64,000 bases of DNA from Hyphomicrobiales bacterium (GTDB lineage: Bacteria; Pseudomonadota; Alphaproteobacteria; Rhizobiales; Beijerinckiaceae). Below are positions 8,872 through 50,255 of this stretch, in pieces. Below the pieces are notes generated by a model. The model searched no databases, had not been told where the DNA came from, and worked only from the letters and a program-made list of their open reading frames with translations. Both the position numbers and the translations under genes were made by a program. The stretch spans positions 1 through 64,000 of the forward strand of contig JAGXAM010000005.1 in the NCBI GenBank assembly GCA_019075905.1, read 5' to 3'. Numbering within the stretch: the stretch's first letter is position 1; every line of letters starts with the position of its first letter.

Positions 8872-8887
8872 AAGGTCTCCTGGAATA

Positions 8888-9045
8888 GCCTCTGCTAGAG
8901 GCGACGTCGGCGGTTTGTGTTAATCGGAGGCCTCAACGACGCCAGGCACGCATGTCAGTTTCGACAAATCGTGCCAGCCGCATGGATGCGGGCCGACGTC
9001 CAGCGACGCCGTCTCGGCCAGGTTCTGGCTTCCGCTAGCAGAGGC
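8888..9045. promoter_or_regulatory. rpsA upstream region with an 11-bp inverted repeat
   Basis: GCCTCTGCTAG at 8888-8898 is repeated exactly in inverted orientation (CTAGCAGAGGC, 9035-9045). The arms are 136 bp apart and flank most of the space upstream of rpsA. In a minus-strand transcript they could close a long-range stem that ends about 17 nt before the rpsA start codon, close to its ribosome-binding site. rpsA is autoregulated in other bacteria, so a structured leader is plausible. A promoter was not identified with confidence. Confidence 0.3.
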
Positions 9046-9086
9046 GAGGCGTGCTGGCAAGGATTAACCGCGGTCTGTGTGACAAA

Positions 9087-35449: not shown

Positions 35450-36154
35450 TCAGGCCCGCCGGTCAAGAATAAAGGCGATGCCAAGGCAAAAGATCACCAC
35501 CAGGGCCTCCAGCGCCATGTCGAGCTGCACGGCCATATGCGCGGCGAGGGTGGCAAGCACGGGCGCCAGAACCGGGTCTTCCAGCATGATATCGGCGGCG
35601 GTGAAGGCGAGCAGGGCGCAACTCGCCCAGATCAGCACGGGAAAGCGCTCCAGCAGGCGCAGCAGCAGCGAGGCCCCGGCGATGATCAGCGGCACCGAAG
35701 CCAGCAGGCCAAAGGCGATCAGCCAGATATTGCCCTGCGCCAGCGCCACCACGGCCAGCACATTGTCAAAGGACATGACGGCATCGGCAAAGGCGATGGT
35801 CGCCACGGCGCGCCACAGCGAGGCGGCCTGGCGGGGTGACCCATGATCATCCTCATCGATCACCAGTTTGACGGCGATCCATGCCAGTAACAGCCCGCCC
35901 AGCAGTTTCAGCCACGGCAGGCCGAGCAATTCCACCACCACCAGCGAGAATATCAGCCGCAGCAACAGCGCGGCACCGCCGCCAAGCCAGATGCCGGCGC
36001 GCCGCTGCCTGTCACCAAGATTGCGTGTCGCGAGCGCAATGACCACGGCATTGTCGCCCGAGAGCAGCACATCGACCCAAATAATCTCGACGAGCCGGGC
36101 GAACAGCAGCGAGACTTCCGGCAAATTTGGCGCGTGCGCCCATAATTGCTGCAT
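35450..36154 (-). CDS. TerC-family integral membrane protein
   Basis: A 234-residue protein with about seven helices. The TerC signature is VDVLLSGDNAVVIALA near the start, with a second acidic motif in ADAVMSFDNVLAVVA. TerC/YkoY/YjbE proteins export or handle metal ions, notably manganese in recent studies. I chose the ATG at 36154, which overlaps the methylmalonyl-CoA mutase stop (TGATG), so the two are translationally coupled; a TTG one codon upstream is less likely. Confidence 0.88.
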   Translation of the reverse strand: MQQLWAHAPNLPEVSLLFARLVEIIWVDVLLSGDNAVVIALATRNLGDRQRRAGIWLGGGAALLLRLIFSLVVVELLGLPWLKLLGGLLLAWIAVKLVIDEDDHGSPRQAASLWRAVATIAFADAVMSFDNVLAVVALAQGNIWLIAFGLLASVPLIIAGASLLLRLLERFPVLIWASCALLAFTAADIMLEDPVLAPVLATLAAHMAVQLDMALEALVVIFCLGIAFILDRRA

Positions 36155-38319
36155 CAAGTCCGCTCGCGGGCGGCGCGCTGGCTGTAGCCGAGGCGGGCAT
36201 TCAGCGCTTCCAGCACAGTTTCGGCAGCTTCGGTCACCACGGTTCCGGGCGGGAATACCGCCGCTGCGCCCATATCGAGCAAGGTCTGGCGGTCAGCATG
36301 CGGGATTACGCCGCCGACGACGATCATGATATCGGGGCGCCCCTTGGCCGTCAGCGCCGCCTTCAATTGCGGCATCAGTGTCAGATGGCCGGCGGCCAGC
36401 GAGGAAATGCCGACGACATGGACATTGTCGCCGACCGCCTGGGCGGCGGCCTCCTCGGGCGTGGCGAAAAGCGCGCCGACATCGACCTTGAAGCCGAGAT
36501 CGTCAAAGGCCGAGGCAATGACTTTCTGGCCGCGATCATGGCCATCCTGCCCGACCTTGGCGACGAGAATGCGCGGCGGCCGGCCGTCATTTTCGGTGAA
36601 GGCCTTGACGAGGCCGCGCACCTTGTCGAGCGTCTGACTGCGGGCACCGGTCTCGTCGGCATAGACGCCGGTGCGCAGGTGCAGCGCCGCGACATGGCGG
36701 GTGAACACCGCTTCGAAGCTGGCAGAAATTTCACCGACCGTAGCTTTGGCGCGGGCGGCCATGACGCTGGCTTCCAGCAGGTTCCCGCCATTTTTCGCGG
36801 CTTGTTGCAGCGCCGCCAGCGCCGCAGCCACGGCGGCCGGGTCGCGTTCCGCCCTAAGGCGCTCCAGTTTGGCAATCTGGCGGGCGCGCACCTCGCTGTT
36901 GTCGATTTTCAGGACGTCCAGCGTCGCCTCGCTTTCGGGCTTGAACATATTGACACCGATGACCGCCTGGGCACCGGAATCGATGCGTGCCTGGGTGCGG
37001 CTCGCCGCCTCCTCGATGCGCTGCTTTGGCAAGCCACTGGCAATGGCCGCCGCCATGCCGCCCATCGCCTCGACCTCGCGGATATGGGCCATCGCCCTGG
37101 CGGCGAGATCGGCAGTGAGGCGCTCGACATAATAAGAGCCGCCCCATGGATCGATGATCCGCGTCGTGCCGCTTTCCTGCTGCAGGAACAATTGGGTATT
37201 GCGGGCGATCCGCGCCGAGAAATCGGTCGGCAGTGCGAGCGCCTCATCGAGGGCATTGGTGTGCAGCGACTGGGTGTGGCCCTGTGTCGCGGCCATGGCC
37301 TCGATTTCGGTGCGGATGACATTGTTGAACACGTCCTGCGCGGTCAGCGACCAGCCGGACGTCTGGCAATGGGTGCGCAGCGCCAGGGATTTTTCGGATT
37401 TGGGGGCAAATTCCTTGATCATATGCGCCCAGATCAGCCGGGCGGCGCGCATTTTGGCAATTTCCATGAAGAAATTCATGCCAATCGCCCAGAAAAACGA
37501 CAGGCGCGGCGCGAATTGATCAATATCGAGACCGGCCTTCAATCCGGCGCGGACATATTCGAGGCCGTCGGCCAATGTATAGGCCAGCTCAAGATCCTGG
37601 GTCGCCCCGGCTTCCTGCATATGATAGCCGGATATCGAGATCGAGTTGAATTTCGGCATATGTCTAGATGTATAAGAAAATATATCCGATATGATGCGCA
37701 TGGAAAATTCGGGCGGATAAATATAGGTGTTGCGCACCATAAATTCTTTGAGGATGTCATTCTGGATCGTGCCGGAAAGCTTTTCCGGAGGCACGCCCTG
37801 TTCCTCGGCGGCGACAATAAACAGCGCCAGAATGGGCAAGACGGCACCATTCATGGTCATTGAAACGCTCATGTCACTGAGCGGAATACCCTCAAACAGG
37901 GTGCGCATGTCGTAAATCGAATCGATGGCGACGCCGGCCATGCCGACATCGCCGGCCACGCGCGGATGGTCTGAATCATAGCCACGGTGGGTCGCCAGAT
38001 CGAAGGCGACCGACAGGCCCTTCTGCCCGGCGGCCAGATTGCGGCGGTAGAAGGCGTTGGAATCCTCGGCGGTGGAGAACCCGGCATATTGGCGGATGGT
38101 CCAGGGCTGGTTGACATACATGGTCGGGTAGGGCCCGCGCAGAAACGGCGCGGCACCGGGAATGCCATCAAGAAAGCTCAGTCCGGCAATGTCGCCGGGG
38201 GCATATTTGCCTTTGAGGGCAATGCCTTCGGGCGTCATGAAGCCCGGAGCGTCAGGGATGGCGCCGGCCGCGTGCGGGGGCGTCCACGGGAGCCGGGAGA
38301 AATCGGGAAAAGCTATCAT
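36154..38319 (-). CDS. scpA: Methylmalonyl-CoA mutase, large (catalytic) subunit
   Basis: A 721-residue adenosylcobalamin enzyme that interconverts methylmalonyl-CoA and succinyl-CoA. The barrel has [42 protein letters not shown] and [12 protein letters not shown]. The C-terminal B12 domain has [18 protein letters not shown] (base-off cobalt ligand His), GISSLAAGH and [10 protein letters not shown]. It follows the small-subunit gene by 73 bp. No meaB chaperone or epimerase gene adjoins them. Confidence 0.97.
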
Positions 38320-38392
38320 GCGACATGCTCATGCAATGGTTTGGCCGCGACCCTGAGGTCGATGATACAGCAAATTGCCGGTTCGGGGCAGG

Positions 38393-40228
38393 TCAAGCTT
38401 TCATGTCCTGCGTCATGGTGTCCAGCAAAGTGCCGAGTGTCGCGACGGCATCGCCTCCACTGAAGATGAAAATTTCTGCCCCGGCGGCGCGAAAGGTCGC
38501 TTCATGGGCGCCAGGCTGGCCGGCAAGGGCGATGCGGTAACCAAGGGCTTGCAACCGGGCCAGCGCCGCAGCGCCTTCTGCGGCATAGGCCTTGTCGGTG
38601 GCGCACAGGCACGCCCAGCGCGTCGTGTCCGTGGCGCTCTCAAGCTCGTCGCAGGGCGATGTCCGGGCGATGGCAATACCGCCGCTGGCGAAAAACTGCG
38701 CAGCAAAGGTGGCGCGGGCGGCATGGTCGGCGAGCGGCCCGAGGGTTGCCAGCACCACCTGCGCAGCGGGCAGGGCGCGGGCGCGAGCGCGCAGCTTCTC
38801 GAAGGGTTCGGACAGCCGCATTGCGGGAAAATCGCCGCCGGCCTCGGGCCGCTCCGGCGCCGGGGCGAGACAGGTGACGCGAACAGGTTGAAGGCTGGCA
38901 AAGGCGCTGGTGCCGGTGAGGGGCTGGCGACGGGTGGCGATGGCCTGCGCCCGCTTTTTTGCGGTGGCGCTGACCGCAGCGGCGAGGCTGCCGGAGGTGA
39001 GAGCCTGCACGATGCCGCCTTCCGCCTCGATGGTCTGGAACTGCGCCCAGGCGGCGCGGCAGAGCTCATCGGTCAAAGCCTCAATCGCGCCGGAACCGGC
39101 CGCAGGGTCGGCGACGATGCCGAGATGCGATTCTGCCCGCAGGATCAACTGGGTGTTGCGGGCGACGCGCCGGGCAAAGCCATCAGGCAGGCCAAGCGCC
39201 ATGGAATAGGGCAGCGCGGTGATGACATCGGCGCCGCTGACACCGGCCGCAAATACCGCCATGCCGACGCGCATGATGTTCACGTGCGGATCCTCGCGGG
39301 TCATCATCCGCCAGGCGCTTTCGGCATGCAGGCGCAGCGGCTGGGCGGAAAGGCCGCAGGCTTCCTCAAGGCGGGCCCAGAGCAGGCGCAGGGCGCGAAA
39401 CTTGGCCATGGTGAGGAACTGGTCGGCATCGGCCGCCATGATGAAAGAGATCTGGTTGCGGGCGTCTTCCAGCGACAGGCCGGATTGGTTCAGAGCCTTC
39501 AGGTAATAAAGCCCGCCCGCCAGCATGAAAGCCAGCTCCTGGGCCTCACCGGCGCCGGCGTCATGCAGAATGCGGCCATCAATGCCAAGGGCGCGCGACG
39601 GGCTGGGCGCCTCCGACAGGCTGCGGGCCAGGGCGCAAATCTCCGGCATGTCATCCAGCGCATTTGCCGTGCCGCGCATGCGGGCGCCCAGCGGGTTGCA
39701 GCAAAAATCAACACGCAGGCCGGAAATCTGGAAACCACGCAGGGCCAGACCAGCGCCAAGCCTTCTTGCGGCGGCAAGGCCGGAGCCGGGCGCATCGAGC
39801 CGCAGGGAGATGAGATCGGCCTCAACACCGGCAAGGGCGGCGGCGACATCTTCCGGCAGCTCGGCCTCCAGGCCAAAGCCATGGGCACCGGGGGCCTCGG
39901 CCATAACTAGGGTCAGTGCCTCGGCGCCGGCTTCAAGATCGCCCAGAGCCTGGATGCGGGCGGCGTCGGGTTCGGGCTGGTCGACGCGTTGTGCCAATGT
40001 CCAGCCGGGTTTGGGGGCAAGAAGCGGGGCTGTCTGCGGCGTCGCCGGGCGAGGATAGAGCGGCTTGATCGGCAGGCCCTCGGCGCTGCGGCTTTCGAGG
40101 CGCTCGAAGGCGCCGCCCTTGAACGCGGCGATGGCAAGGTCACGCCATTGCGCCAGGGTCGGCGCACCAAAGGCGCCGAAATCGGGCAAGGCTTCAGAAG
40201 TCTGCACATTGGTTGCGTCTAGCGGCAC
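38393..40228 (-). CDS. mutA: Methylmalonyl-CoA mutase, small subunit
   Basis: A 611-residue paralog of the catalytic subunit. It keeps the barrel motifs in diverged form (LSLEDARNQISFIMAADADQF, RNTQLILRAESHLGIVADPAAGSGAIE) and a degenerate C-terminal B12-like domain lacking the DxHxxG signature, as in MutA subunits that do not bind cobalamin. The heterodimer with the downstream large subunit is the active form. The GTG at 40228 has GGAT upstream. Conservation is lower than in the large subunit, as usual. Confidence 0.92.
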   Translation of the reverse strand: MPLDATNVQTSEALPDFGAFGAPTLAQWRDLAIAAFKGGAFERLESRSAEGLPIKPLYPRPATPQTAPLLAPKPGWTLAQRVDQPEPDAARIQALGDLEAGAEALTLVMAEAPGAHGFGLEAELPEDVAAALAGVEADLISLRLDAPGSGLAAARRLGAGLALRGFQISGLRVDFCCNPLGARMRGTANALDDMPEICALARSLSEAPSPSRALGIDGRILHDAGAGEAQELAFMLAGGLYYLKALNQSGLSLEDARNQISFIMAADADQFLTMAKFRALRLLWARLEEACGLSAQPLRLHAESAWRMMTREDPHVNIMRVGMAVFAAGVSGADVITALPYSMALGLPDGFARRVARNTQLILRAESHLGIVADPAAGSGAIEALTDELCRAAWAQFQTIEAEGGIVQALTSGSLAAAVSATAKKRAQAIATRRQPLTGTSAFASLQPVRVTCLAPAPERPEAGGDFPAMRLSEPFEKLRARARALPAAQVVLATLGPLADHAARATFAAQFFASGGIAIARTSPCDELESATDTTRWACLCATDKAYAAEGAAALARLQALGYRIALAGQPGAHEATFRAAGAEIFIFSGGDAVATLGTLLDTMTQDMKA

Positions 40229-40317: not shown

Positions 40318-40743
40318 TTACATGAAGCGGCTGAGGCCCGGCACGGCGCTGGAGATCTGGCCGATCAGGCCCGGGCCGCCCTTTTCCTGGGCAAAGGCGA
40401 ACACGGCCTTGCCGGCGCTTTCCATCTGATCCATGCTCATGCCGGTGGAGGAGAGCTGGCTCGCCAGACCCATGACACCGCCAGCAGCATTGCCGCCACC
40501 GCCGAGCAAGCCGCCGAGCATGCCGGTGACCGCGCCCATCAGGCCGCCAGCGCCAGCTGCGGGCGCTGCCGCAGATGCTGCATCAGCGGCATCCTGCGCG
40601 CCGGGAATCATGCCCATCAATTGTCCGACCGGCCCGGCCGGGCCTTCCTTTTGCAAAAAGCCCAAAATCATGCCAACCGCGCTCTGCGCCGTCGACGAAT
40701 CAACACCTGCCGCGGAACTCACGCGAGAAATCAATTCTTCCAT
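40318..40743 (-). CDS. DUF2780/DUF2267-like glycine-rich protein
   Basis: A 141-residue protein with an N-terminal helical module (MEELISRVSSAAGVDSSTAQSAVGMILGFLQ), a Gly/Ala-rich middle (LLGGGGNAAGG) and a C-terminal segment KAVFAFAQEKGGPGLIGQI. The pattern resembles DUF2780-type (VcgC/VcgE-like) proteins of unknown function; the family call is tentative. The ATG at 40743 lies 7 bp after GGGGAG. It seems to be a single-gene unit ended by the hairpin at 40249-40277. Confidence 0.65.
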   Translation of the reverse strand: MEELISRVSSAAGVDSSTAQSAVGMILGFLQKEGPAGPVGQLMGMIPGAQDAADAASAAAPAAGAGGLMGAVTGMLGGLLGGGGNAAGGVMGLASQLSSTGMSMDQMESAGKAVFAFAQEKGGPGLIGQISSAVPGLSRFM

Positions 40744-40859
40744 AATGAAACTCCCCATATTTCAAGGCGCGCTCCGGCACCCTGAGGCCGAGCGCGCTGC
40801 ACAAAAGCAGGAGACGCAGGAAATTGCAACTCTGTATGGTGCGTGCACAGAGCGCGATC

Positions 40860-42542
40860 TTAAGATCCGGCACGCAGGGTGCTGAGGGTGGCGGTCGGGG
40901 TGATGGCCTCGACCGCGACCTTCACATGCAGGATGGCAGGCAGACCGCTGGCCTCGGCATCGCGGAAGGCCGCGGCAAAATCCGCGGTGCGCGTGACTGT
41001 GGCGCCAAAACCGCCGAAAGCGCGGGCAAGGGCGGCAAAATCCGGGTTGATGAGGTCGGTCGCGACCTCGCGACCGGGGTATTCGCGCTCCTGATGCATG
41101 CGGATCGAGCCGTAGCTGGCGTTGTCGATGATAATATTGACGATGGCCAGGCGATATTGCACCTGGGTGGCAAATTCCTGGCCATTCATCAGGAAGTCGC
41201 CGTCACCGGCGACGCAAATGACCGGCCTTTGCGGGAACAGGCGCTTCATGGCGACGGCGGCGGGCACGCCATAACCCATGGAAGCGCAGGCGGGCGCGCA
41301 ATGGGCAGCGAAGGCGCGGAAGCGGTAGTAACGGTGGATCCACGCGGCATAATTGCCGGCGCCGTTGCACAAAATGGTGTCCGGCGGCAGGTGGTCGCGC
41401 AGGAAGACCATGATCTCGCCGGTATTGACGTCGCCTGGCTGCGGCAGGGGTGTTTGCGACCATGCAAGATAGGCGGCATGGGCGGCGTCGGCTTCCGGCT
41501 GCCACCGGCCGGGGCGGCCAAGATCGAGCCTGCCCAGCGCGCGGACAAAAGCATGCGGGCTGGCCACGATGCCGGCTTGCACCGGGAAGACACGCCCGAT
41601 TTCGGCGGCATCGGGATAGACATGCACCAGCGTTCTGGCGGATGTTTCAGGCGTGAAAAGGTTGTAGCCCTGGCTTGGCACCTCGCCGAGGCGGCCGCCG
41701 AGCAGCAGCACGAAATCGCTGGCCTTGATGCGCGCGACCAGTTGCGGATTGGCGCCGAGGCCGAGGTCACCGGCATAGCAGGCATGATCGGCCGAAAATA
41801 GCGAGGCGCGCCGGTAGCTGGTGGCGACCGGCAGGCCGTAGCGCGCTGCAAAATCGGCAAATGAGGCGCTGGCTTCGGCGCTCCAGCCCGAGCCGCCGAG
41901 AATGACGAGCGGGCGTTCGGCGGCGTTCCAGCTTTTGGCAAGGCTTGCCAGCGCGGCCGGATCGGGCCCGATGGCTGCGGGCGTTTGAAAAAGGCGGGCG
42001 GGCCATGGAACCGGCAGGCTCAGGAGATCGCGCGGCAAGGCCAGCACGGCGGGGCCGGGGCGTCCGGCCGTGGTCGCAGCCAGCGCGCGGTGCAGGGTTT
42101 CCTCCCAGCGCGCCGGGTCATCAAGCTCGCCGCACCAGCGCGTCATCGCGCCGAAAGTGGCGGGAAAATCCAGTTCCTGCCAGGCCTCGCGGCCACGCCA
42201 GCGCCGATCGACCTGACCGGCCAGCATCAGCATCGGCGTCGCATCGCGATCTGCAATATAAATGCCCGGTGCGGCATTGGTGGCGCCGGGGCCACGGGTG
42301 ACGAGGCAAAGGCCCGGGCGCCCGGTGGCCCGGCCGACGGCATCGGCCATCATGGCGGCGCCGGCCTCGTTGCGGCAGACGGTGAGGGCAATGGCGCTGT
42401 CGCGCAGCGCATCCAGCAAGGCGAGATAACTCTCGCCCGGGACACAGAAGGCGTGGCGAATGCCATAGGCCTCGAGTGCGGCGACCAGCGCCTGTGCGAG
42501 GTTGGGATTGTTGTTGCCGGCTTGTTGGGGGGGAATGGTCAT
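40860..42542 (-). CDS. ThDP-dependent acetolactate-synthase-like enzyme
   Basis: A 560-residue three-domain ThDP enzyme. The N-terminal Pyr domain has the activating glutamate in VCRNEAGAAMMADAVGRATG and LVTRGPGATNAAPGIYIA. The middle domain follows at about 185-320. The PP domain has the diphosphate/Mg motif GDGDFLMNGQEFATQVQYRLAIVNIIIDN. It is not a normal IlvB: no regulatory subunit is nearby, and it is paired with an acyltransferase gene 3 bp upstream. Relatives condense pyruvate-derived two-carbon units with keto acids, aldehydes or keto-sugars. The substrate is unknown. Confidence 0.85.
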   Translation of the reverse strand: MTIPPQQAGNNNPNLAQALVAALEAYGIRHAFCVPGESYLALLDALRDSAIALTVCRNEAGAAMMADAVGRATGRPGLCLVTRGPGATNAAPGIYIADRDATPMLMLAGQVDRRWRGREAWQELDFPATFGAMTRWCGELDDPARWEETLHRALAATTAGRPGPAVLALPRDLLSLPVPWPARLFQTPAAIGPDPAALASLAKSWNAAERPLVILGGSGWSAEASASFADFAARYGLPVATSYRRASLFSADHACYAGDLGLGANPQLVARIKASDFVLLLGGRLGEVPSQGYNLFTPETSARTLVHVYPDAAEIGRVFPVQAGIVASPHAFVRALGRLDLGRPGRWQPEADAAHAAYLAWSQTPLPQPGDVNTGEIMVFLRDHLPPDTILCNGAGNYAAWIHRYYRFRAFAAHCAPACASMGYGVPAAVAMKRLFPQRPVICVAGDGDFLMNGQEFATQVQYRLAIVNIIIDNASYGSIRMHQEREYPGREVATDLINPDFAALARAFGGFGATVTRTADFAAAFRDAEASGLPAILHVKVAVEAITPTATLSTLRAGS

Positions 42543-42545
42543 CGC

Positions 42546-43520
42546 TCAGGAACCGAAATAGACGATTTCGCTATAGGCGAGATCATTGAGGCGCGGGGCT
42601 TTGAGGCCGCGATAGAACTTCTTGTCGCGCCCGGGCGAGAACCGGCCGACGAGGCCCGGCACCGGCGCCGGGGTATCGAGCCGCAAAAGGGTGATGCCGT
42701 GATGGAGGAGCAGCCAGCGGCCGAGCGGATGCGCGAACCGCGCCAGATCGCTGGCGTCGCGGCAATAGACCAGCGGCCGGATGCGCAGCAGGCGGCGCGC
42801 CAGAATGAGTGGAATGCGGCGCAGCCGCGCCCAGCCGAGGCGCGACAGGGTGCCGCCGAGATTTGCTGGCCATCGCCGCGCTTCCGGGCGGTTAAGCACG
42901 AAGGGCACCAGCCCCTGAAGATCCTCGCCGACCACCACGAGGCAGCCGAGGTCAGCATGATCACACAGCATGCGATATTCATGCGGCGGCAGGCGCGCCT
43001 GATCGCGCGCGGCGTCAAAGGCGCGGACCTTGCGATGCAGGCCGCCGCCCAGCAGCGGAGGCGTCAGCAGCGATCCGGCGCTGTAAAGCTGGTAACCCTG
43101 CGGTTTCAGCAGCGGCAGGGTGTGCGGCGCCGCGGAAATGTTGGTGTAGGTCATTTGTTTGATGTGCAGCGACTGCTTCACCAGCATATGCGCGAGGGCG
43201 CGGGCTTCGGGCTTTACATACCAGCTTGAGACATTGCAGCGCGGGCCGTCGGGCGAGGCATCGTCGGGAGCGTGAATCAACAACAGCACGCCGTCGATTT
43301 TGCCGCCCTGCTCAAGCACATAGCCCCAGCGTGGCCGGTCGGTATCGAGCCGGCGCGTGCTCAAGGTCGCAAGGCCTTGCTGCCAGCTGGCGAGATTGCG
43401 CCCTGGGAAGCCCTCGGCCAGCAGGTCGGCCACTTCGGCAAGATCGCCAGCCTCGATGGCGCGGCAGCGATGGGCATGGGCTTGGGCAGGATTATCGGGG
43501 AGCTTGGGTTGCGGGCGCAT
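42546..43520 (-). CDS. GNAT-like acyltransferase, function unknown
   Basis: A 324-residue protein. The first 150 residues follow an N-acetyltransferase pattern (CRAIEAGDLAEVADLLAEGFPGRNLASW, GYVLEQGGKIDGVLLLIHAP, VSSWYVKPEARALAHMLVKQSL). The second half is a separate region ending ARLNDLAYSEIVYFGS. I cannot name a close family. It is co-directional with the ThDP gene (3-bp gap) and divergent by 100 bp from the ACP operon, which fits use of an ACP- or CoA-bound acyl donor. Confidence 0.65.
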   Translation of the reverse strand: MRPQPKLPDNPAQAHAHRCRAIEAGDLAEVADLLAEGFPGRNLASWQQGLATLSTRRLDTDRPRWGYVLEQGGKIDGVLLLIHAPDDASPDGPRCNVSSWYVKPEARALAHMLVKQSLHIKQMTYTNISAAPHTLPLLKPQGYQLYSAGSLLTPPLLGGGLHRKVRAFDAARDQARLPPHEYRMLCDHADLGCLVVVGEDLQGLVPFVLNRPEARRWPANLGGTLSRLGWARLRRIPLILARRLLRIRPLVYCRDASDLARFAHPLGRWLLLHHGITLLRLDTPAPVPGLVGRFSPGRDKKFYRGLKAPRLNDLAYSEIVYFGS

Positions 43521-43620
43521 GGTCTGGTCGGAAACCCTTCAGGGCGGAACAGGAGAAACCCTGCCAAACCAATCTTTAAGCACTGTGCCTTAAAACACTC
43601 TGAACCCCCGGGAGGCCAGC

Positions 43621-43869
43621 GTGAACCTGCACGACATCATCATCAGCGAAATCGCCACGGTCGCGAAAGAGCAAGGCAAAACCCTGAATCCGCTCAGCGA
43701 TGATATGGCGCTGGCAGCTTGCGGGCTGGATTCGCTGGGCTTTGCCATTCTGGTGGCGAACCTTGAGGACAAGCTCGGGTTTGATCCTTTCGCCACCGCC
43801 GAGGATGTGCGCTATCCGCAGACGCTCGGTGATCTGGTGCGCTTTTACCATGATGCGGTTCCTGCGTGA
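43621..43869 (+). CDS. Stand-alone acyl carrier protein
   Basis: An 82-residue carrier protein with the phosphopantetheine site GLDSLGF at Ser38. Its sequence (MNLHDIIISEIATVAKEQGK ... FATAEDVRYPQTLGDLVRFY) differs from housekeeping AcpP, which marks a pathway-specific carrier. The GTG start at 43621 has GGAGG 6 bp upstream. Its stop overlaps the GTG start of the ligase gene, so carrier and ligase are made together. Confidence 0.9.
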   Translation: MNLHDIIISEIATVAKEQGKTLNPLSDDMALAACGLDSLGFAILVANLEDKLGFDPFATAEDVRYPQTLGDLVRFYHDAVPA

Positions 43870-45245
43870 GGCAAGCTACCGCCGCACCGGTGCCGCGCAT
43901 GAGCCTGCGCCAGCATGTAGCTGGCGCTGCCCATGGTGCGCAGCTGTTTGCGGCGGCCGGGCGGATTGATCTTGGGACAGCCGCACATTCCTCATGGCTG
44001 ACGGGCGCCGATGCCGGGCCCGATGCGACGGTGTTGCTGCGCACCCGCGACCAGCATGATTTTGCGCTGGCCCTGCTGGAACTCGACGGGCGCGCCGGGC
44101 GGCTGATCATTTGTCCGCCCGACCTGACCGCAGCGCAGGCCGCCGCGGTGATGGCGCAGCATGGCGTCACCCATGTTTTTGACGATGCAACCATGGAGGG
44201 ACTGACGCCGGTCGACGGGGTGCGGCGTCTGGCGTTGCGGGCGCTGCCGCAACAGGCCGACGTCACCGCGCCCGCCTGTGATACGCAATGGCTGATGTTT
44301 ACCTCCGGCACTTCCGGCCCGCCAAAACTGGTCGCCCATAGTTTCGCCGGTCTCACCGGGGCGATAACGCCGCTGGCCGGCGCCGATGCGGTGGTGTGGG
44401 GCACTTTCTATGATGTGCGGCGCTACGGCGGCCTGCAGATGCTCTTGCGGGCGCTGACCGGCGGCGGCTCGATGGTGCTGTCGCAGACAGGTGAGCCGGT
44501 GGCCGCCTTCATCGCCCGGCTGCGGGAGGCGGGGGTCACGCATCTGGCAGGCACGCCCAGCCATTGGCGCCAAGCGCTGATGTGCCCCGATCTCACCACG
44601 CTGAAGCCGCGCTATCTGCGGCTTTCGGGCGAGATCGTCGATCAGTCGGTGCTCGATGCGTTGAGGGGTGCCTTTCCCGGGGTGATGATCGGCCATGCCT
44701 TTGCCTCGACCGAGGCCGGGGTTGCCTTTGAGGTCAATGACGGCCTTGCCGGGTTTCCGGCGGCCTGGCTCGATATGCCGGGCAAGGTTGAAATGCGGGT
44801 GCGCCATGGCACCTTGCACTTGCGCTCGGGGAGAACGGCTTCGGCCTATGCCGGGGGCGGCGGCGCGCTGCATGACGATGACGGCTTTGTCGATACCGGC
44901 GATCTCGTGCAGCAGCGCGGTGACCGGGTGTATTTTGCCGGACGTGCCAGCGGCATCATCAATGTCGGCGGCGCGAAAGTCGCGCCCGAAGAGGTCGAGG
45001 CGGTGATCAATGGCGTGGCGCAGGTGCATCAGTCACGGGTGCATGCGCGCCGCAACCCCATGACCGGGTCGCTGGTGGCTGCCGAAATCGTCGCGCTGCC
45101 CGGCTGCGACGAGGCTGCGTTGCGGGCGGAAATCCTGCAGGCCTGCCGGGCGGCGCTGCCGGCCTACAAGGTGCCGGTGTCGCTGACCTTCGTCGCCGCG
45201 CTGCCGATGAGCGCCGGTGGCAAGCTGGAGCGCCGTCATGCGTAA
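43866..45245 (+). CDS. Adenylate-forming acyl ligase (AMP-binding), ACP-associated
   Basis: A 459-residue member of the acyl-CoA synthetase / NRPS adenylation family. It has the P-loop WLMFTSGTSGPPKLVAHS, HAFASTEAGVAFEVNDG, the ATP-ribose aspartate in DTGDLVQQRGDRVYFAGRASGIINVGGAKVAPEEVE, and the catalytic lysine in SAGGKLERR near the C-terminus. It is short but complete. By context it probably activates an acid and loads the ACP encoded just upstream (GTGA overlap). The substrate is unknown. Confidence 0.85.
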   Translation: MRQATAAPVPRMSLRQHVAGAAHGAQLFAAAGRIDLGTAAHSSWLTGADAGPDATVLLRTRDQHDFALALLELDGRAGRLIICPPDLTAAQAAAVMAQHGVTHVFDDATMEGLTPVDGVRRLALRALPQQADVTAPACDTQWLMFTSGTSGPPKLVAHSFAGLTGAITPLAGADAVVWGTFYDVRRYGGLQMLLRALTGGGSMVLSQTGEPVAAFIARLREAGVTHLAGTPSHWRQALMCPDLTTLKPRYLRLSGEIVDQSVLDALRGAFPGVMIGHAFASTEAGVAFEVNDGLAGFPAAWLDMPGKVEMRVRHGTLHLRSGRTASAYAGGGGALHDDDGFVDTGDLVQQRGDRVYFAGRASGIINVGGAKVAPEEVEAVINGVAQVHQSRVHARRNPMTGSLVAAEIVALPGCDEAALRAEILQACRAALPAYKVPVSLTFVAALPMSAGGKLERRHA

Positions 45246-45963
45246 TGTCATCATCAGCGGCGCCAGTCGCGGGCTTGGCCTTGGCATTGCCACGAGGCTC
45301 GCCGCCGATGGCTTTCGCATCATCGTGCTGGCGCGCAAGTCGAGCCCGGCGCTGGAGGCGGCGATCAGCGCGGCGGGCGACGGTCGCATGTATTTTCACC
45401 CGGCCGATCTTGCGGATGTCGACCAGATTGCCGGGCATGTGCGCCACATCAAGACGGAGTTCGGGCCGATTTATGGCCTTGTCAACAATGCTGCCGGCAG
45501 CGCCGAGGGCCTGCTCACGAGCCTGTCGCAGGCGCAAATAGAGGCGCTGGTGCGGCTCAATACCGTCTCGCCGATGCTGCTGACCAAATATGCCTTGCGC
45601 GCGATGATCCAGCAGAAGGCCGGGCGCATCGTCAACATGGCCTCGATCGTCGCCAGCACCGGTTCGGTCGGGCTCAGCGTCTATGGCGCAACCAAGGCGG
45701 CAATGATCGGGTTCACGCGCTCGCTGGCGCGCGATGTCGGCAAGCTCGGCATTACGGTCAATGCCGTGGCGCCCGGCTTTGCCGCCACCGAACTGACCGG
45801 CGCGCTGGATGAAGCGCAACGCGCGCAGATTGCACGGCGCAGCGCCATGGGCCAATTGATCGAACCGCAGGATGTCGCCGGTGTCGTCGCCTTTCTGATG
45901 AGCGATGATGCAAGCCGGATCACCGGCAGCGTCATCACGGTCGATGCCGGGGCAACAGCGTGA
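45238..45963 (+). CDS. Short-chain dehydrogenase/reductase, FabG-like
   Basis: A 241-residue classical SDR. It has the NAD(P) motif SGASRGLGLGIA, LVNNAAGSAEG, catalytic Ser in NMASIVASTGSVG, the YGATK Tyr/Lys pair, and VNAVAPGFAATELT. Likely an NADPH-dependent 3-ketoacyl-ACP reductase or similar carbonyl reductase. The ATG at 45238 lies 8 bp inside the end of the ligase gene and its stop overlaps the next start (TGATG). Confidence 0.92.
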   Translation: MRNVIISGASRGLGLGIATRLAADGFRIIVLARKSSPALEAAISAAGDGRMYFHPADLADVDQIAGHVRHIKTEFGPIYGLVNNAAGSAEGLLTSLSQAQIEALVRLNTVSPMLLTKYALRAMIQQKAGRIVNMASIVASTGSVGLSVYGATKAAMIGFTRSLARDVGKLGITVNAVAPGFAATELTGALDEAQRAQIARRSAMGQLIEPQDVAGVVAFLMSDDASRITGSVITVDAGATA

Positions 45964-47699
45964 TGCCAGCCGAGCCGGTTTCAGCCAACCGCTTGTGGCT
46001 GGCGGCATTGCAGGCCACGGCCGCCATAGCCGCGACGCCGTTGCTGACCTTGCCGCGACGCATCGAGGCCGGGGCGCTGGCACATGGCGAGGCACGGGCG
46101 ATCCTGAGCGTCGAGGCTTGCCTATCCTATGGGGAGCTGGCGGCGCATATGCGCCGCACCGCCCGTTTTGCGAAGGCGCAAGGCTGGGGCAAGGGCGACG
46201 TCATCGCCCTGCATATGCAGAATGGCCCGGATTATCTGGCAACATGGCTCGGCCTCGCAAGAGTTGGTATCGTCACCGCGCTGCTCAACCCGCAACTTGC
46301 TGCAGCGGGTCTCGATCACGGCCTGCGGGTTTCGGGGGCGCGGGCGGTGATTGCCGATGCCTCGCTGGGCACGGAGCCCGGTCTGCCGGTGATCCGCCTT
46401 GATGCGGCGTGGCGCGCGGCCCTGAACGGCCTTTCGGGCGCGGCGCTCGAGGAGGCCGAAGCTGAAACCGTCACTTTGGGTGATCCGGCCTTGCTGATCT
46501 TCACCTCAGGCACGACCGGCATGCCCAAGGCGGCGCGGCTCAGCCATCACCGAATCCTGACCTGGAGCCTGTGGTTTGCGGGATTAAGCCAGGCCGGGGC
46601 GAGTGACCGGCTCTATGATCCCCTGCCGCTCTTCCACAGCGTCGGCGGCGTGGTCGCGCCCGGGGCCATGCTGGTATCGGGCGGCGCCGTAATGTTGCGC
46701 GACAAGTTTTCGGTGAGCCAGTTCTGGGATGATATCGTGCGCTTCGAGTGCACCATTTTTCAGTATATCGGCGATCTTTGCCGCTATTTGCTGAACGCGC
46801 CGCCGCATCCGCTGGAGCGGGCGCATCGCCTGCGCCTCGCCTGTGGCAACGGGCTTTCCGGGGCGATCTGGGAGGCTTTTGTCGCGCGCTTCGCGCTGCC
46901 GCGTATTCTCGAATTCTATGCGGCGACCGAAGGCAATGTTTCGCTCTACAATGTCGAGGGCAAGCCCGGAGCGCTAGGGCGCATTCCCGGATTTCTGGCG
47001 CATGGTTTTCCGCTGGCGCTGGTGCGCCATGATGCGGCGACCGGCGCGCCATGGCGCGATGCCGATGGCTTTTGCCGGCGCTGTGCCACTGACGAGCCCG
47101 GCGAAGCGCTCGGGCTGGTGAGCGCCGGGCGCGGTGCCACCGGAGCCTTCGAGGGCTATACCGACCCTGAAGCCACAAGCCGCAAATTGCTGCGCGACGT
47201 GTTTGCCCCAGGCGATGTGTGGTTTCGCACCGGCGACCTGATGCGCGCCGACGCGCAGGGCTATCATTATTTCGTCGACCGGATCGGCGATACCTTTCGC
47301 TGGCATGGCGAGAATGTCGCGACCACGGAGGTCGCGCGGGTTATTGGCGCTGTGGCGGGGGTTAAGGATTGCGCGGTTTATGGCGTCACCGTGCCGGGGC
47401 ATGACGGGCGTGCCGGCATGGCGGCGCTGGTGGTCAGCGATGCCTTCGCGATGGCGGACCTGACCGCCGCGCTTGCGGCGCATTTGCCCGCCTATGCGCG
47501 GCCGCTGTTCGTGCGGATCATGCCGGCGCTGCCGCTGACCCAGACGTTCAAGCAGCAAAAGACGGCGCTGATGAACGAGGGCTTTGATCCGCGCCTGATT
47601 GCTGATCCCCTATGGTTCTGGAAGGCCGATGCAGGGCAGTGGCAGGCGCTCGATGCGCATCTTCATGATGCCATCAGCAAGGATCGTTTACGCCTCTAG
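45963..47699 (+). CDS. Long-chain acyl-CoA synthetase (FadD6/VLACS-like)
   Basis: A 578-residue adenylate-forming enzyme of the very-long-chain acyl-CoA synthetase group. It shows LLIFTSGTTGMPKAARLSH, YDPLPLFHSVGG, FQYIGDLCRYLLN, EFYAATEGNVSLYN, WFRTGDLMRADAQGYHYFVDRIGDTFRWHGENVATTEVA, and PLTQTFKQQKTAL near the C-terminus. The family activates long-chain fatty acids and may aid their uptake. As the last gene of the four-gene operon it may supply an acyl-CoA to the same pathway. Confidence 0.9.
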   Translation: MPAEPVSANRLWLAALQATAAIAATPLLTLPRRIEAGALAHGEARAILSVEACLSYGELAAHMRRTARFAKAQGWGKGDVIALHMQNGPDYLATWLGLARVGIVTALLNPQLAAAGLDHGLRVSGARAVIADASLGTEPGLPVIRLDAAWRAALNGLSGAALEEAEAETVTLGDPALLIFTSGTTGMPKAARLSHHRILTWSLWFAGLSQAGASDRLYDPLPLFHSVGGVVAPGAMLVSGGAVMLRDKFSVSQFWDDIVRFECTIFQYIGDLCRYLLNAPPHPLERAHRLRLACGNGLSGAIWEAFVARFALPRILEFYAATEGNVSLYNVEGKPGALGRIPGFLAHGFPLALVRHDAATGAPWRDADGFCRRCATDEPGEALGLVSAGRGATGAFEGYTDPEATSRKLLRDVFAPGDVWFRTGDLMRADAQGYHYFVDRIGDTFRWHGENVATTEVARVIGAVAGVKDCAVYGVTVPGHDGRAGMAALVVSDAFAMADLTAALAAHLPAYARPLFVRIMPALPLTQTFKQQKTALMNEGFDPRLIADPLWFWKADAGQWQALDAHLHDAISKDRLRL

Positions 47700-47789: not shown

Positions 47790-48563
47790 ATGAAAGCAGT
47801 CATCCTGGCCGGCGGCTATGGCACGCGCATTTCCGAGGAGACGCAGCTGCGCCCCAAGCCCATGGTCGAAATCGGCGGGCGCCCGATCCTCTGGCACATC
47901 ATGAAGATCTATGCGCATCACGGCATAACAGATTTCGTGATCCTGCTTGGCTACAAGGGCTATATCATCAAGGAATATTTCGCCAATTACGTGCTGCATG
48001 CTTCCGATGTCACCATTGATGCGCGCAATAACAAGATTCATTATCACCAGAGCCTTGCCGAGCCCTGGAGCATTACGCTGATTGATACCGGCGAAGGCAC
48101 ACAGACCGGCGGGCGCTTGCGGCGCGCGCGCCAGCAGATTGGCCTCGACAGTACCTTCTGTCTGACCTATGGCGACGGCCTCGCCGACATCGACATTGGC
48201 GCGCTTGTGACGTTTCACAAGGCGCAGGGCAAGGCCGCGACGCTGACAGCGGTGACGCCGCCGGGGCGCTATGGCGCGCTGGAGCTCGACGGTGCGCAGG
48301 TGCGCCGCTTTGCCGAGAAGCCGCCCGGCGACAATGCGCTGATCAATGGCGGCTATTTCGTGCTGGAACCCTCGGTGATCGACCGCATCGCCGGCGATGA
48401 AACCCCCTGGGAAGGAGCGCCGCTGGAAGGGCTGGCTGCCGATGGCGACCTCGTCGCCTTTCGCCATGGCGGATTCTGGCAGCCGATGGACACCTTGCGC
48501 GATCGCATGAAGCTCGAAGCCCTGTGGGATTCCGGCAAGGCGCCGTGGAAATTATGGTCTTGA
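47790..48563 (+). CDS. rfbF: Glucose-1-phosphate cytidylyltransferase
   Basis: A 257-residue nucleotidyltransferase that makes CDP-glucose from CTP and glucose 1-phosphate. It starts MKAVILAGGYGTRISEETQLRPKPMVEIGGRPILWHIM and has LGYKGYIIKEYFANY, LTYGDGLADID and RHGGFWQPMDTLRD, all typical of RfbF/DdhA. The gene after it, rfbG, starts within its last codons, so the two form the CDP-4-keto-6-deoxyglucose module. It lies 90 bp downstream of the acyl-CoA synthetase on the same strand and may be co-transcribed. Confidence 0.96.
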   Translation: MKAVILAGGYGTRISEETQLRPKPMVEIGGRPILWHIMKIYAHHGITDFVILLGYKGYIIKEYFANYVLHASDVTIDARNNKIHYHQSLAEPWSITLIDTGEGTQTGGRLRRARQQIGLDSTFCLTYGDGLADIDIGALVTFHKAQGKAATLTAVTPPGRYGALELDGAQVRRFAEKPPGDNALINGGYFVLEPSVIDRIAGDETPWEGAPLEGLAADGDLVAFRHGGFWQPMDTLRDRMKLEALWDSGKAPWKLWS

Positions 48564-49618
48564 GCGCGCGGCCGGATCCACGGTTCTGGGCTGGGCGCAA
48601 GGTGCTGGTCACCGGCCACACCGGCTTCAAGGGCGCGTGGTTGACGCGGATGCTGGGCCGGCTTGGTGCCGAAGTCACCGGCCTCGCGCTGGCGCCGGCC
48701 GGATCGACCAATTTATATGAACTGGCGGGCCCGCAGCCGTGGCTCTCGTCGTATATCATGGATATCAATGATGCGGCGGGCGTGCAGCTTCTGGTGAGCG
48801 CGGTGCGCCCCGAGCTTGTGCTGCATCTGGCGGCGCAGGCCCTGGTGCGGCCCTCCTATGAGGCGCCGAAGGCGACCTTCGCCACCAATGTCATGGGCAC
48901 CATCCATCTGATGGAGGCGTTGCGGGCCAGCCCCGGCCTGAAGGCGCTGCTGGTTGTCACCACCGACAAGGTTTATGCCAATCCCGAAACCGGGCAGGCG
49001 TTTCGTGAAGCCGATGCGCTTGGCGGGCACGATCCCTATTCGGCCTCGAAGGCGGCCTGCGAAATTGCTGTTGCCAGCTGGCGGCAGAGCTTTTTTGCGG
49101 CGGCTGGGGTCGCCGTGGCGACGGCGCGGGCCGGCAATGTCATTGGCGGTGGCGATTTTGCCGAAAACCGCATCATTCCCGATATTTTCCGGGCCTTTCA
49201 GCAAGGCGCCACCCTGACCCTGCGGCATCCGCAGGCAACCCGGCCGTGGCAGCATGTGCTCGACGGGCTGAACGGCTATCTGCTCTATGCCGAGGCGCTG
49301 GCGCAGCAACGGGCTGTGCCGGCCGCGCTCAATTTCGGGCCGTCCGGTGCACCGCTTGCGGTGGCGCGTGTGGTGGAGGCGATGCAGGGTGCGCTTGGCG
49401 CCACGCCGGGCTGGCAGCAGGCCAAGGGCCCGCAGGTTCATGAAGCCGGACTGCTGGCGCTCGACAGCCATGCCGCCCATGCCGCGCTCGGCTGGCGCGA
49501 CCAGTTCGACAGCGCCACTGCCATAGCCCGCACCGCTGCCTGGTATGCCGCTTTCGCCCGGGGGGGCGACATGCGCGCCTATGGCGAGGCCGAGCTCAGG
49601 GAATTTATGGGCCTGTAA
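48554..49618 (+). CDS. rfbG: CDP-glucose 4,6-dehydratase
   Basis: A 354-residue extended SDR that converts CDP-glucose to CDP-4-dehydro-6-deoxyglucose. It has VLVTGHTGFKGAWLTRML, LHLAAQALVRPSYEAP, TTDKVYAN, the catalytic DPYSASKAACE, and RAGNVIGGGDFAENRIIPDIFRAFQQG. The ATG at 48554 has GGAAA just upstream. Its last 40 bp overlap the 3' end of the RmlC-like gene on the other strand. No 3-dehydrase (rfbH/ddhC) for 3,6-dideoxyhexoses is present nearby. Confidence 0.95.
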   Translation: MVLSARPDPRFWAGRKVLVTGHTGFKGAWLTRMLGRLGAEVTGLALAPAGSTNLYELAGPQPWLSSYIMDINDAAGVQLLVSAVRPELVLHLAAQALVRPSYEAPKATFATNVMGTIHLMEALRASPGLKALLVVTTDKVYANPETGQAFREADALGGHDPYSASKAACEIAVASWRQSFFAAAGVAVATARAGNVIGGGDFAENRIIPDIFRAFQQGATLTLRHPQATRPWQHVLDGLNGYLLYAEALAQQRAVPAALNFGPSGAPLAVARVVEAMQGALGATPGWQQAKGPQVHEAGLLALDSHAAHAALGWRDQFDSATAIARTAAWYAAFARGGDMRAYGEAELREFMGL

Positions 49619-50136
49619 TCCGGCCAGGCGGCGTCGCGCGGGTTGATCGCCTCCGGTGCGAAAGGCCATGCGATGTTGAAAGCCGGATCATCAAACCTGA
49701 TGCCGCGCTCATGGCCCGGCACGAAGGCGCGGCCCATCTGGTAAAGCACATCAGAATCAGGCTGCAATGTGATGAATCCATGGGCAAAGCCTTCGGGAAC
49801 CAGCACGGCGCGGGCATTGGCGCGGCTGAGTTCAAAGCCGCGCCATTGCCGGTAGGTGGGGCTTTGCGGGCGCAGGTCGAGCGCCACGTCAAATATCGCG
49901 CCGCTGGTGCAGCGCACCAGTTTGGCCTCGGCCAGCGGCGCTTCCTGATAATGCATGCCGCGCAAGGTGCGTGCGGCAATGTTGTGGCTGAGGTTGACCT
50001 GCACGGGCGTGAAATCCAGCCCGGCTTCGGCAAATTCCTGCGGGCAGAACAGCCGTGCAAAACTGCCGCGCGAATCACGGTGCGGCTCGGCCTCGACGAC
50101 CACCAGGCCGGATAAATCAGTCATTTCAAAGCGCAT
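49579..50136 (-). CDS. rfbC: RmlC-like nucleotide-sugar 3,5-epimerase
   Basis: A 185-residue cupin. It has HRDSRGSFARLFCPQEFAEAG, the catalytic histidine in TLRGMHYQEAPLAEAKLVRC, DVALDLRPQSPTYRQW and VPEGFAHGFITLQPDSDVLY, all typical of dTDP-4-dehydrorhamnose 3,5-epimerases. Next to rfbG it may epimerise a CDP-keto sugar instead. The ATG at 50136 is chosen; ATG at 50124 and a GTG at 50205 are also in frame. Confidence 0.88.
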   Translation of the reverse strand: MRFEMTDLSGLVVVEAEPHRDSRGSFARLFCPQEFAEAGLDFTPVQVNLSHNIAARTLRGMHYQEAPLAEAKLVRCTSGAIFDVALDLRPQSPTYRQWRGFELSRANARAVLVPEGFAHGFITLQPDSDVLYQMGRAFVPGHERGIRFDDPAFNIAWPFAPEAINPRDAAWPDYRPINSLSSASP

Positions 50137-50255
50137 GGCATCGGGCTCGCGGTCAGGAAACAAGGTCGGCGGCGTATTCCAGCTTGCCGGTTGCTGGTGG
50201 TGCACTAGCTCCGCAAGGGCTGAAAAATAAGTGGCGTTGCCATGAATTGCTAGTT

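Follow-up and report, generated by a model that had tools for sequence, protein, structure and literature searches.

A conserved acyl-carrier gene set in alphaproteobacteria as a possible half of an NRPS-free two-carrier pathway

Six neighbouring genes within a 64,000-nucleotide stretch of a Hyphomicrobiales genome (positions 1 to 64,000 of contig JAGXAM010000005.1, assembly GCA_019075905.1; hereafter, the window) are half of a conserved gene set, the second half of which lies on other contigs in this genome. We put at roughly 0.55 the probability that the whole set encodes an NRPS-free pathway with two carriers, in which a tandem GNAT joins an acyl group to a carrier-bound amino acid. An earlier, sequence-only reading had taken the six genes themselves as a pathway. 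They do represent a real carrier-protein pathway, yet an incomplete one, as a second carrier module, MetA/MetY-like enzymes and an aminotransferase are encoded on other contigs. That reading also knew of no named system with this set, and we likewise found no description of the gene set in the open-access literature.

As judged by ORF coordinates and Pfam, the six ORFs are intact, in the order and with the gaps and junction overlaps originally described (Table 1). The GNAT gene lies upstream of the ThDP gene, with a gap of 3 bp, and overlaps of 4 bp join ACP to the ligase (LIG) and the short-chain dehydrogenase (SDR) to the FATP/FadD6-like gene (FATP). The overlap between LIG and SDR amounts to 29 bp when SDR is read from its first GTG, or 8 bp when read from the ATG at 45238, the site of a conserved MRNV start and the probable start of the gene. 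Compared to a congener (G001), all six genes exhibited dN/dS values of 0.09-0.18. Elsewhere in the window, positions 18112-18981 encode an ordinary class IV aminotransferase, which falls below the PRK13356 cut-off and was left out of the cluster-gene counts.

Table 1. Features of the six-gene region and its immediate neighbours (window coordinates).
Feature	Position	Strand	Basis
ThDP-dependent enzyme (PRK08199 family)	40860..42542	-	Pfam TPP_enzyme N/M/C and NCBIfam
Tandem-GNAT acyltransferase	42546..43520	-	AlphaFold model and fold comparison; without family model
Divergent intergenic region between GNAT and ACP, 100 bp	43521..43620	.	Coordinates
Acyl carrier protein (ACP), GLDSL phosphopantetheine site	43621..43869	+	PF00550, 25.5 bits > 20.8
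Stand-alone adenylate-forming ligase (LIG)	43866..45245	+	Pfam AMP-binding and AMP-binding_C
FabG-like short-chain dehydrogenase (SDR)	45217..45963	+	Pfam, NCBIfam
FATP/FadD6-like acyl-CoA synthetase	45960..47699	+	PRK08279, 677 bits > 625; Pfam AMP-binding
Glucose-1-phosphate cytidylyltransferase rfbF (neighbour, not core)	47790..48563	+	TIGR02623, 439 bits > 300
CDP-glucose 4,6-dehydratase rfbG (neighbour, not core)	48524..49618	+	TIGR02622, 409.7 bits > 278

The second half of the set consists of an aaRS-like amino acid:[carrier protein] (aaCP) ligase, an ACAD-like enzyme, a second carrier, MetA/MetY-like enzymes and an aminotransferase, and these genes, or candidates for them, were found elsewhere in the window genome (G000). 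Ligases of this kind, Bll0957 and its relatives, were reportedly described by Mocibob et al. in 2010 and 2013. The copy in the window genome, a SerRS-like ligase of the PRK07080/Bll0957 type (G000:C3:21762-22682, outside the window), exceeds the PRK07080 cut-off, scores 402 bits against 3mey and has an ACAD-like gene as its neighbour; in both G000 and G001, ACAD, aaCP ligase, MetY and MetA genes lie together on another contig. The MetA-like protein scores 292.9 where the MetA cut-off is 358, and the MetY on contig C3 has a second homologue on C8 (47% identical), which weakens the reading of the C3 gene as just a methionine enzyme without thereby proving a role in the pathway. A candidate second carrier on contig C30 (L044:8494-8769) is unlinked; it matches PF00550 with 33.6 bits, and a cluster carrier weakly (44% over 59 residues). 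No condensation or ketosynthase domain was met among the cluster proteins scanned.

Conservation was examined in 88 loci picked by LIG alone, i.e., the window, seven loci of relatives and the best 80 of 349 places matching LIG (three congeners of the window genome included), which split into 60 non-Bradyrhizobium and 28 Bradyrhizobium loci. Genes in the fetched loci were called using a simple ORF picker and study-specific tblastn thresholds, and since many fetched contigs stop inside the cluster, absences there are bounds only. Across these 88 loci, LIG is immediately followed by SDR in 85 and closely preceded, in 84, by an ORF in which a study-specific pattern recognises a DS-type carrier motif. 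Among the 60 non-Bradyrhizobium loci of this best-80-of-349 set, GNAT and (ACP) LIG are arranged divergently in 38; GNAT was found in 40, FATP in 38, the MetY-like gene in 31, the aaCP ligase, ACAD-like and MetA-like genes in 28 each, the second carrier in 25 and ThDP in 23, many of these loci being limited by contig ends. FATP was present in all 28 Bradyrhizobium loci. The gene order is kept in many genera and several phyla, the set recurs in many soil and plant bacteria, and the cluster of congener G002 (locus L027) holds 12 pathway genes in one stretch. Clustering of these genes is not due to chance, and the neighbours, which the sequence-only reading had allowed might prove scattered in related genomes, keep their order across the sampled loci and the congeners.

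The co-occurrence that this reading had proposed to look for was also evident at the level of whole genomes. In a sample of 385 alphaproteobacteria (hypergeometric tests with relatedness ignored, only the top first-look candidates being scored), GNAT was found in six genomes, all of them among the nine that are LIG-positive (p 2e-11; 8e-10 without G001). The aaCP ligase exceeded its cut-off in ten genomes, four of which are LIG-positive (p 3e-5; 5e-4 without G001), and six of the ten carry this ligase without LIG. Though none was seen at a Bradyrhizobium LIG locus, GNAT was present in 27/27 Bradyrhizobium genomes searched, and adjoined the aaCP ligase and ACAD genes in 26 of the 27 best loci (all matches viewed, one locus fetched per genome, L122 left out). 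The Bradyrhizobium genome G417 has a copy that scores 714 bits against Bll0957 (PDB 3mey), and with this copy the 26 aaCP ligases share 84-94% identity. Outside Bradyrhizobium, no GNAT was found at E<=1e-15 in 12 of the 16 genomes (several of them MAGs) whose LIG locus is without GNAT.

The GNAT itself has no Pfam or NCBIfam match at E<=0.001 and no PDB sequence match. Its AlphaFold model (pLDDT 83.5) presents a two-domain GNAT fold, matching 3ddd (Z 14.6, rmsd 4.6, 249 aligned) and 7q3a, titled a tandem repeat GNAT (Z 13.6, rmsd 4.3, 254 aligned), with N-myristoyltransferases among the weaker fold matches. The pyrophosphate loop of GNATs carries the motif R/Q-x-x-G-x-G/A. At the likely loop position, assigned by eye in an alignment, R-x-x-A is invariant in 9/9 rows and the glycines are missing; a loop so degenerate could suit a carrier-bound rather than a CoA donor.

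As for LIG, the TSGT..P-K motif and the C-terminal lysine K453 are invariant in 52 sequences, as are T146-T149, P153, K154, A280-E283, D346, G359 and R360. Its model (pLDDT 89.0) matches ANL-type structures with Z 31-34 (4rlf: Z 33.6, rmsd 3.5, 441 aligned), and the enzyme probably loads an acid on the neighbouring ACP. Its PDB matches are too broad for a substrate to be named, as those listed include aryl- and acyl-CoA ligases as well as NRPS adenylation domains; an invariant stretch (D183, R185, R186, Y187) hints at a polar pocket only.

The ThDP enzyme bears the GDG...N cofactor motif and the VPGES glutamate, and scores 745.7 bits against NCBIfam PRK08199, a 'thiamine pyrophosphate protein' family (cut-off 539). 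We discarded the idea that it is the housekeeping acetolactate synthase, as it falls below the AHAS cut-offs (TIGR00118, 259.8 vs 538.35 bits; PRK08322, 289.4 vs 509) and a true acetolactate synthase is encoded on contig C2 (790.6 bits against TIGR00118, cut-off 538). Given this C2 gene and another PRK08199 member encoded on C9 (842 bits against a cut-off of 539), the earlier concern that the ThDP enzyme might be the only acetolactate synthase falls away. The presence of the family was likewise rejected as a sign of the pathway: PRK08199 is above cut-off in 162/385 alphaproteobacteria, and is thus uninformative by itself, leaving the clade result as the only informative one. In a tree, 22 cluster-linked copies, that of the window included, form one clade (100/100) separate from 27 other sampled PRK08199 copies, the C9 copy among them. 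Judging from this phylogeny, the lineage of the window enzyme is found only in these clusters within the sample. The enzyme may be optional in the pathway, since no ThDP gene was detected at 37 of the 60 non-Bradyrhizobium loci of the best-80-of-349 set (some contigs being short), nor in the G002 cluster, the sole PRK08199 match of G002 falling in the non-cluster clade.

Where it is present, the ThDP gene has GNAT as its same-strand neighbour in 21 loci, and adjoins an aminotransferase gene in 11 (window excluded; both counts within the best 80 of 349 set). A PLP amino-acid decarboxylase gene was found in 8/58 non-Bradyrhizobium loci, never together with ThDP or aminotransferase, one or other of which occurs in 27/58 (58 of the 60 loci, L074 and L075 being left out and L027 replacing L076 of the same genome). 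This exclusion (p 0.004, relatedness and contig ends ignored) fits alternative routes to decarboxylate one amino acid.

From the gene content, conservation, co-occurrence, folds, motifs and separate ThDP clade we infer the reactions of a two-carrier pathway, their order, the bridging role of the GNAT and the product. In the half encoded by the window, LIG would adenylate a carboxylic acid and load it on ACP, the FabG-like SDR would alter the oxidation level of the acyl group on ACP, and the FATP enzyme would activate a second, probably fatty, acid, while the dedicated ThDP enzyme and the aminotransferase encoded elsewhere may turn an amino acid into an aldehyde or acid for use in the pathway. 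In the other half, the Bll0957-type ligase would charge the second carrier with a small amino acid, by analogy glycine, an ACAD-like flavoenzyme would oxidise it there, and the MetA/MetY-like enzymes would provide a building block derived from homoserine. Bridging the halves would fall to the tandem GNAT, which would take an acyl group from ACP or CoA and attach it to the amine of the amino acid on its carrier. More tentatively, and with the odds against it, the set may be an undescribed line of biosynthesis without NRPS or PKS, in which the aaRS-derived ligase loads glycine or another small amino acid on one carrier, the ANL ligase loads an acid on the other, and the tandem GNAT, its CoA loop being degenerate, stands in for a condensation domain by joining the two loads from carrier to carrier; this would give the aaCP ligases their missing role. 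Its product, a signal, a cofactor-like compound or an envelope component, would be common to Bradyrhizobium, Methylobacterium, Methylocystis, Caulobacter and their relatives.

Of the other explanations, the one closest in probability, albeit unlikely, is an unusual acyl or aminoacyl decoration of a surface polysaccharide or other glycan, in which LIG, ACP and SDR prepare a hydroxyacyl group that the GNAT puts on an amino sugar. Of the four genomes of the genus that were viewed, G000, G001 and G003 have rfbF after FATP, and none was seen at the G002 locus; in the window, rfbF is accompanied by rfbG and an rmlC-like gene. Five loci (L029, L031, L081, L123 and L135) have glycosyltransferase, flippase, Wza/Wzc or GINT1_N-type genes at their flanks. 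Moreover, distant triads with the same three-gene core and order, ACP-ligase-SDR(-KAS III), lie with pseI, KAS III and flagellin genes in Azospirillum, and with glycosyltransferases and acyltransferases on Haematobacter and Qingshengfaniella plasmids. Their ligases are about 40-43% identical to LIG over 69-89% of the query, yet their surroundings are glycan genes, with no FATP, MetA/MetY or aaCP ligase in the annotated flanks shown; the A. ramasamyi record also holds an alpha/beta hydrolase and another phosphopantetheine-binding protein, and the A. brasilense flank has a short GNAT by annotation. As these triads serve surface-glycan loci, the first half may not always work with the second. Against glycan decoration as the general function, 16 glycan-type seeds matched 8/88 loci, none of them from Bradyrhizobium, and in three of the eight the match was confined to one lower-scoring ORF, a count that is a lower bound because the seeds missed rfbF and rfbG of the window; by the same search, clear glycan neighbours were found in 5/88 loci (the best 80 of 349 included). 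Nor does such decoration offer a clear role for MetA/MetY, the aminotransferase or ACAD.

Somewhat less probable still is lipid tailoring, with FATP and ACP delivering a fatty acyl group, the GNAT making an N-acyl amino acid lipid, and MetA/MetY and ThDP feeding the head group; the frequency of FATP at these loci and the weaker N-myristoyltransferase fold matches suit it, but FATP was not found in several long loci. The pathway originally proposed, in which an acid on ACP undergoes ThDP carboligation to an alpha-hydroxy ketone, followed by SDR reduction and GNAT transfer, appears improbable, and its acyloin, step order and acceptor are not supported as written. The cluster-linked ThDP lineage and its adjacency to GNAT speak for it. 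Among the sequence relatives with solved structures, acetolactate synthase, benzaldehyde lyase and glyoxylate carboligase are carboligases, but pyruvate oxidase and oxalyl-CoA decarboxylase are relatives too. Against it, ThDP was not found in many long clusters, the neighbouring aminotransferase and the lack of overlap with the PLP decarboxylase suit 2-oxo-acid decarboxylation at least equally, and the scheme leaves out the second carrier module. That independent catabolic or housekeeping genes are neighbours by accident is barely credible: the families are common, as the spread of PRK08199 illustrates, but the order conserved across genera and phyla, the separate ThDP clade and the co-occurrence of unlinked GNAT and LIG in Bradyrhizobium contradict it.

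In the Dlt system (D-alanyl carrier protein), a small acid reaches its dedicated carrier by way of a stand-alone adenylating ligase and no NRPS, a pairing that the window set would share; to our knowledge, Dlt employs a different ligase subfamily and has no SDR, ThDP, GNAT or second carrier. Compared to the known aaCP ligases, the difference here is the tie to a second activation module (ACP, LIG, SDR and FATP), a GNAT and MetA/MetY-like enzymes. A 2022 review (PMC9437257) gives the biological role of Bll0957-type ligases as unknown. These aaRS-like ligases, with their solved structures and biochemistry, here gain as partners a specific GNAT, a homoserine-type supply and another carrier that comes with a ligase and SDR of its own, which turns the open question of their role into gene-deletion and metabolite tests in easily grown bacteria such as Bradyrhizobium. 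Were the GNAT indeed to join two carrier-bound groups, it would represent a new type of condensation catalyst.

Speaking against the two-carrier reading, six acidobacterial or rokubacterial loci are without GNAT and aaCP ligase and carry a haem-oxygenase-like protein, accompanied in four of the six by the PLP decarboxylase.

The six genes for which the sequence-only reading had proposed an acyl-carrier pathway with a ThDP acyloin step exist in the order and spacing it claimed, as their re-checked coordinates show (see table), and all six give dN/dS values of 0.09-0.18 against the congener G001. Its GNAT label is borne out because the model predicted from nine homologues (pLDDT 83.5) folds as a two-domain GNAT. 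Inspection of the sequences found the core motifs of the adenylate-forming ligase (LIG) and the ThDP enzyme intact. By eye on the alignment, the pyrophosphate loop of the GNAT looks degenerate, which would suit a carrier-bound donor.

Features of the cluster, its surroundings and comparison loci (positions without a locus are those of the window)
Feature	Position	Strand	Description
ThDP enzyme	40860-42542	-	PRK08199 family
GNAT	42546-43520	-	No Pfam or NCBIfam match
ACP	43621-43869	+	PP-binding carrier
LIG	43866-45245	+	AMP-forming ligase; no NCBIfam cut-off reached among the best 25 of 87 matches
SDR	45217-45963	+	FabG-like
FATP	45960-47699	+	Acyl-CoA synthetase, PRK08279, FATP/FadD6-like
rfbF, rfbG, rmlC-like gene	47790-50205		3' of cluster
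Methylmalonyl-CoA mutase and small-subunit-like gene	36154-40228		Downstream of ThDP gene
Glycine/alanine-rich protein	40318-40758		Small; sub-threshold DUF2780 match
Haem-oxygenase-like (Haem_oxygenas_2)	L093:8860-9588, L148:9081-9764, L118:4511-5272, L097:6916-7872		Upstream of LIG, directly before ACP in three of four
GINT1_N-type protein	L031:3514-5058, L081:16335-17879, L123:15546-17108, L135:1049-2812		Near cluster; Pfam for three, L081 by similarity
Second phosphopantetheine-binding protein and alpha/beta hydrolase	L159:8406-8639 and 8643-9491		With distant ACP-ligase-SDR triad
210-220 aa family	L084:9055-9693, L151:2072-2734		Also in L096, L121
EutQ-like cupin	L031:5187-5768, L138:5508-5978		Eight more loci

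In the neighbourhood test, LIG alone served as the query and the neighbours were inspected afterwards. Strong homologues (46-86% identity) were present in ten genomes when 60 relatives were searched, and a screen of 84,980 species genomes gave 349 places with a LIG relative. Neighbourhood data come from the best 80 of these 349 places, found in Bradyrhizobium (28), Methylobacterium, Methylocystis, Caulobacter and many MAGs, plus Acidobacteria, Rokubacteria and one Binataceae MAG; with the window and 7 loci from relatives, they make up 88 loci. LIG has conserved neighbours: the SDR gene directly follows it in 85/88 loci, and in 84/88, including 28/28 from Bradyrhizobium, it is closely preceded by an ORF that carries a DS-type carrier site. 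The GNAT gene stands divergently ahead of (ACP-)LIG in 38/60 non-Bradyrhizobium loci, and it adjoins the ThDP gene on the same strand in 21 loci.

Several families missing from the window recur at the 60 non-Bradyrhizobium LIG loci: an O-acetylhomoserine sulfhydrylase-like protein (MetY, 31), a PRK07080 amino acid--[acyl-carrier-protein] ligase (28), an acyl-CoA-dehydrogenase-like (ACAD-like) flavoenzyme (28), a MetA-like homoserine acyltransferase (28) and a second carrier protein (25). An alpha/beta hydrolase occurs at 12/60, and a PRK13356-type class IV aminotransferase at 16/59, the window, whose match is an ordinary paralogue, being left out. Elsewhere in the window genome, contig C3 carries the ACAD-like, PRK07080, MetY and MetA-like genes side by side (MetY above its subfamily cut-off, the MetA-like protein below that of MetA), a block also present in G001 (locus L073), while contig C17 encodes a PRK13356 aminotransferase (469 bits, cut-off 262) and C30 a candidate second carrier. 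A second congener, G002, holds twelve genes in one stretch (locus L027): MetA, MetY, PRK07080, ACAD, carrier 2, hydrolase, aminotransferase, GNAT, ACP, LIG, SDR and FATP. We therefore regard the window set and this second group as the halves of a single system whose parts lie separately in the window genome.

Co-occurrence was also assessed independently of linkage in 385 alphaproteobacterial genomes, with tests that ignore phylogeny. The LIG profile (E<=1e-60) matched 9 genomes and the GNAT profile (E<=1e-20) 6, all within those 9 (p 2e-11; 8e-10 without G001). PRK07080 exceeded its own cut-off in 10 genomes, of which 4 were LIG-positive (p 3e-5; 5e-4 without G001) and 6 lacked LIG. The best control is Bradyrhizobium, in whose 28 LIG loci, of 13 families mapped, only FATP, ACP, LIG and SDR were detected. 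GNAT was found elsewhere in the genome in 27/27 Bradyrhizobium genomes searched, and in 26/27 best loci (one per genome) it adjoins a PRK07080 ligase and an ACAD-like gene. The 26 ligases share 84-94% identity with that of G417, a Bradyrhizobium-like genome whose LIG locus shows ~87% DNA identity over 12-15 kb to named Bradyrhizobium loci and whose PRK07080 ligase matches Bll0957 (PDB 3mey) with 714 bits. Since GNAT lies beside PRK07080/ACAD here and beside LIG elsewhere, it travels with either half. Counting against a GNAT-LIG tie, no GNAT was found in 12 of 16 other genomes searched because their LIG locus lacks one.

The ThDP enzyme belongs to a common family (162/385 genomes), with a paralogue on contig C9 of the window genome. 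A maximum-likelihood tree with 22 cluster-linked copies and 27 others from relatives places every cluster-linked one, the window's included, on one side of a branch with 100/100 support and leaves the C9 copy outside, so within the sample the lineage is cluster-specific. Not every cluster has it: it was found neither in that of G002 nor in 37/60 non-Bradyrhizobium loci. In 11 loci it adjoins the aminotransferase. A PLP-dependent decarboxylase is present instead in 8/58 non-Bradyrhizobium loci, never with the ThDP enzyme or the aminotransferase, one or other of which occurs in 27/58 (p 0.004 for the exclusion, relatedness ignored). We read this mutual exclusion as alternative routes for the decarboxylation of one amino acid, which may be what MetA and MetY produce.

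The analysis shows gene content, order and conservation, the GNAT and LIG folds, the LIG and ThDP core motifs and the carrier sites; the mechanism that follows is our proposal. Ligases of the ANL type attach acids to a carrier or to CoA. Here, the ThDP enzyme and the aminotransferase would feed the acid, the SDR would act on the ACP-bound group, FATP would supply a second acyl group, and GNAT would bridge two carrier-bound groups. According to a 2022 review (PMC9437257), enzymes of the PRK07080 type charge a carrier with small amino acids.

The main rival is that the gene set makes a surface-glycan decoration, as would fit the CDP-glucose genes after the cluster in the window genus, five loci flanked by polysaccharide-type genes, and distant ACP-LIG-SDR triads within flagellin or glycan loci. 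Glycan seeds, however, match just 8/88 loci, a lower bound because even rfbF and rfbG of the window escaped them, and the same seeds match 0 Bradyrhizobium loci and not the G002 locus. An acyloin scheme and a lipid scheme are each possible, unlike a chance assembly of neighbours, which is ruled out. For the combined set, no paper was found in searches of an open-access library; we call the carrier-protein chemistry and enzyme families familiar and the combination undescribed.

The rfbF, rfbG and rmlC-like genes (the last at 147.6 bits, just below the cut-off of 155.75) would be the start of a CDP-6-deoxyhexose route. The flagellin-glycan locus L159, on an Azospirillum ramasamyi plasmid, is another two-carrier arrangement. 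On the other side of the cluster, the methylmalonyl-CoA mutase (1235 bits against PRK09426, above the cut-off) and its small-subunit-like neighbour (367 bits, below the cut-off of 617) occupy the same place in G001, and the glycine/alanine-rich protein between the mutase and ThDP genes is also kept there.

A haem-oxygenase-like protein is encoded at six loci of acidobacterial or rokubacterial origin (two of them in the same MAG), which have neither GNAT nor the PRK07080 ligase; three of four such proteins scanned were above the Pfam cut-off, the fourth (L148) just under. These clusters are predicted to use a different oxidative step, and the pathway has possibly spread horizontally. Rhodospirillales-type MAGs carry the 210-220 aa family, which has no Pfam match over threshold. 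Most of the ten loci with an EutQ-like cupin also carry the PRK07080-type ligase or the aminotransferase.
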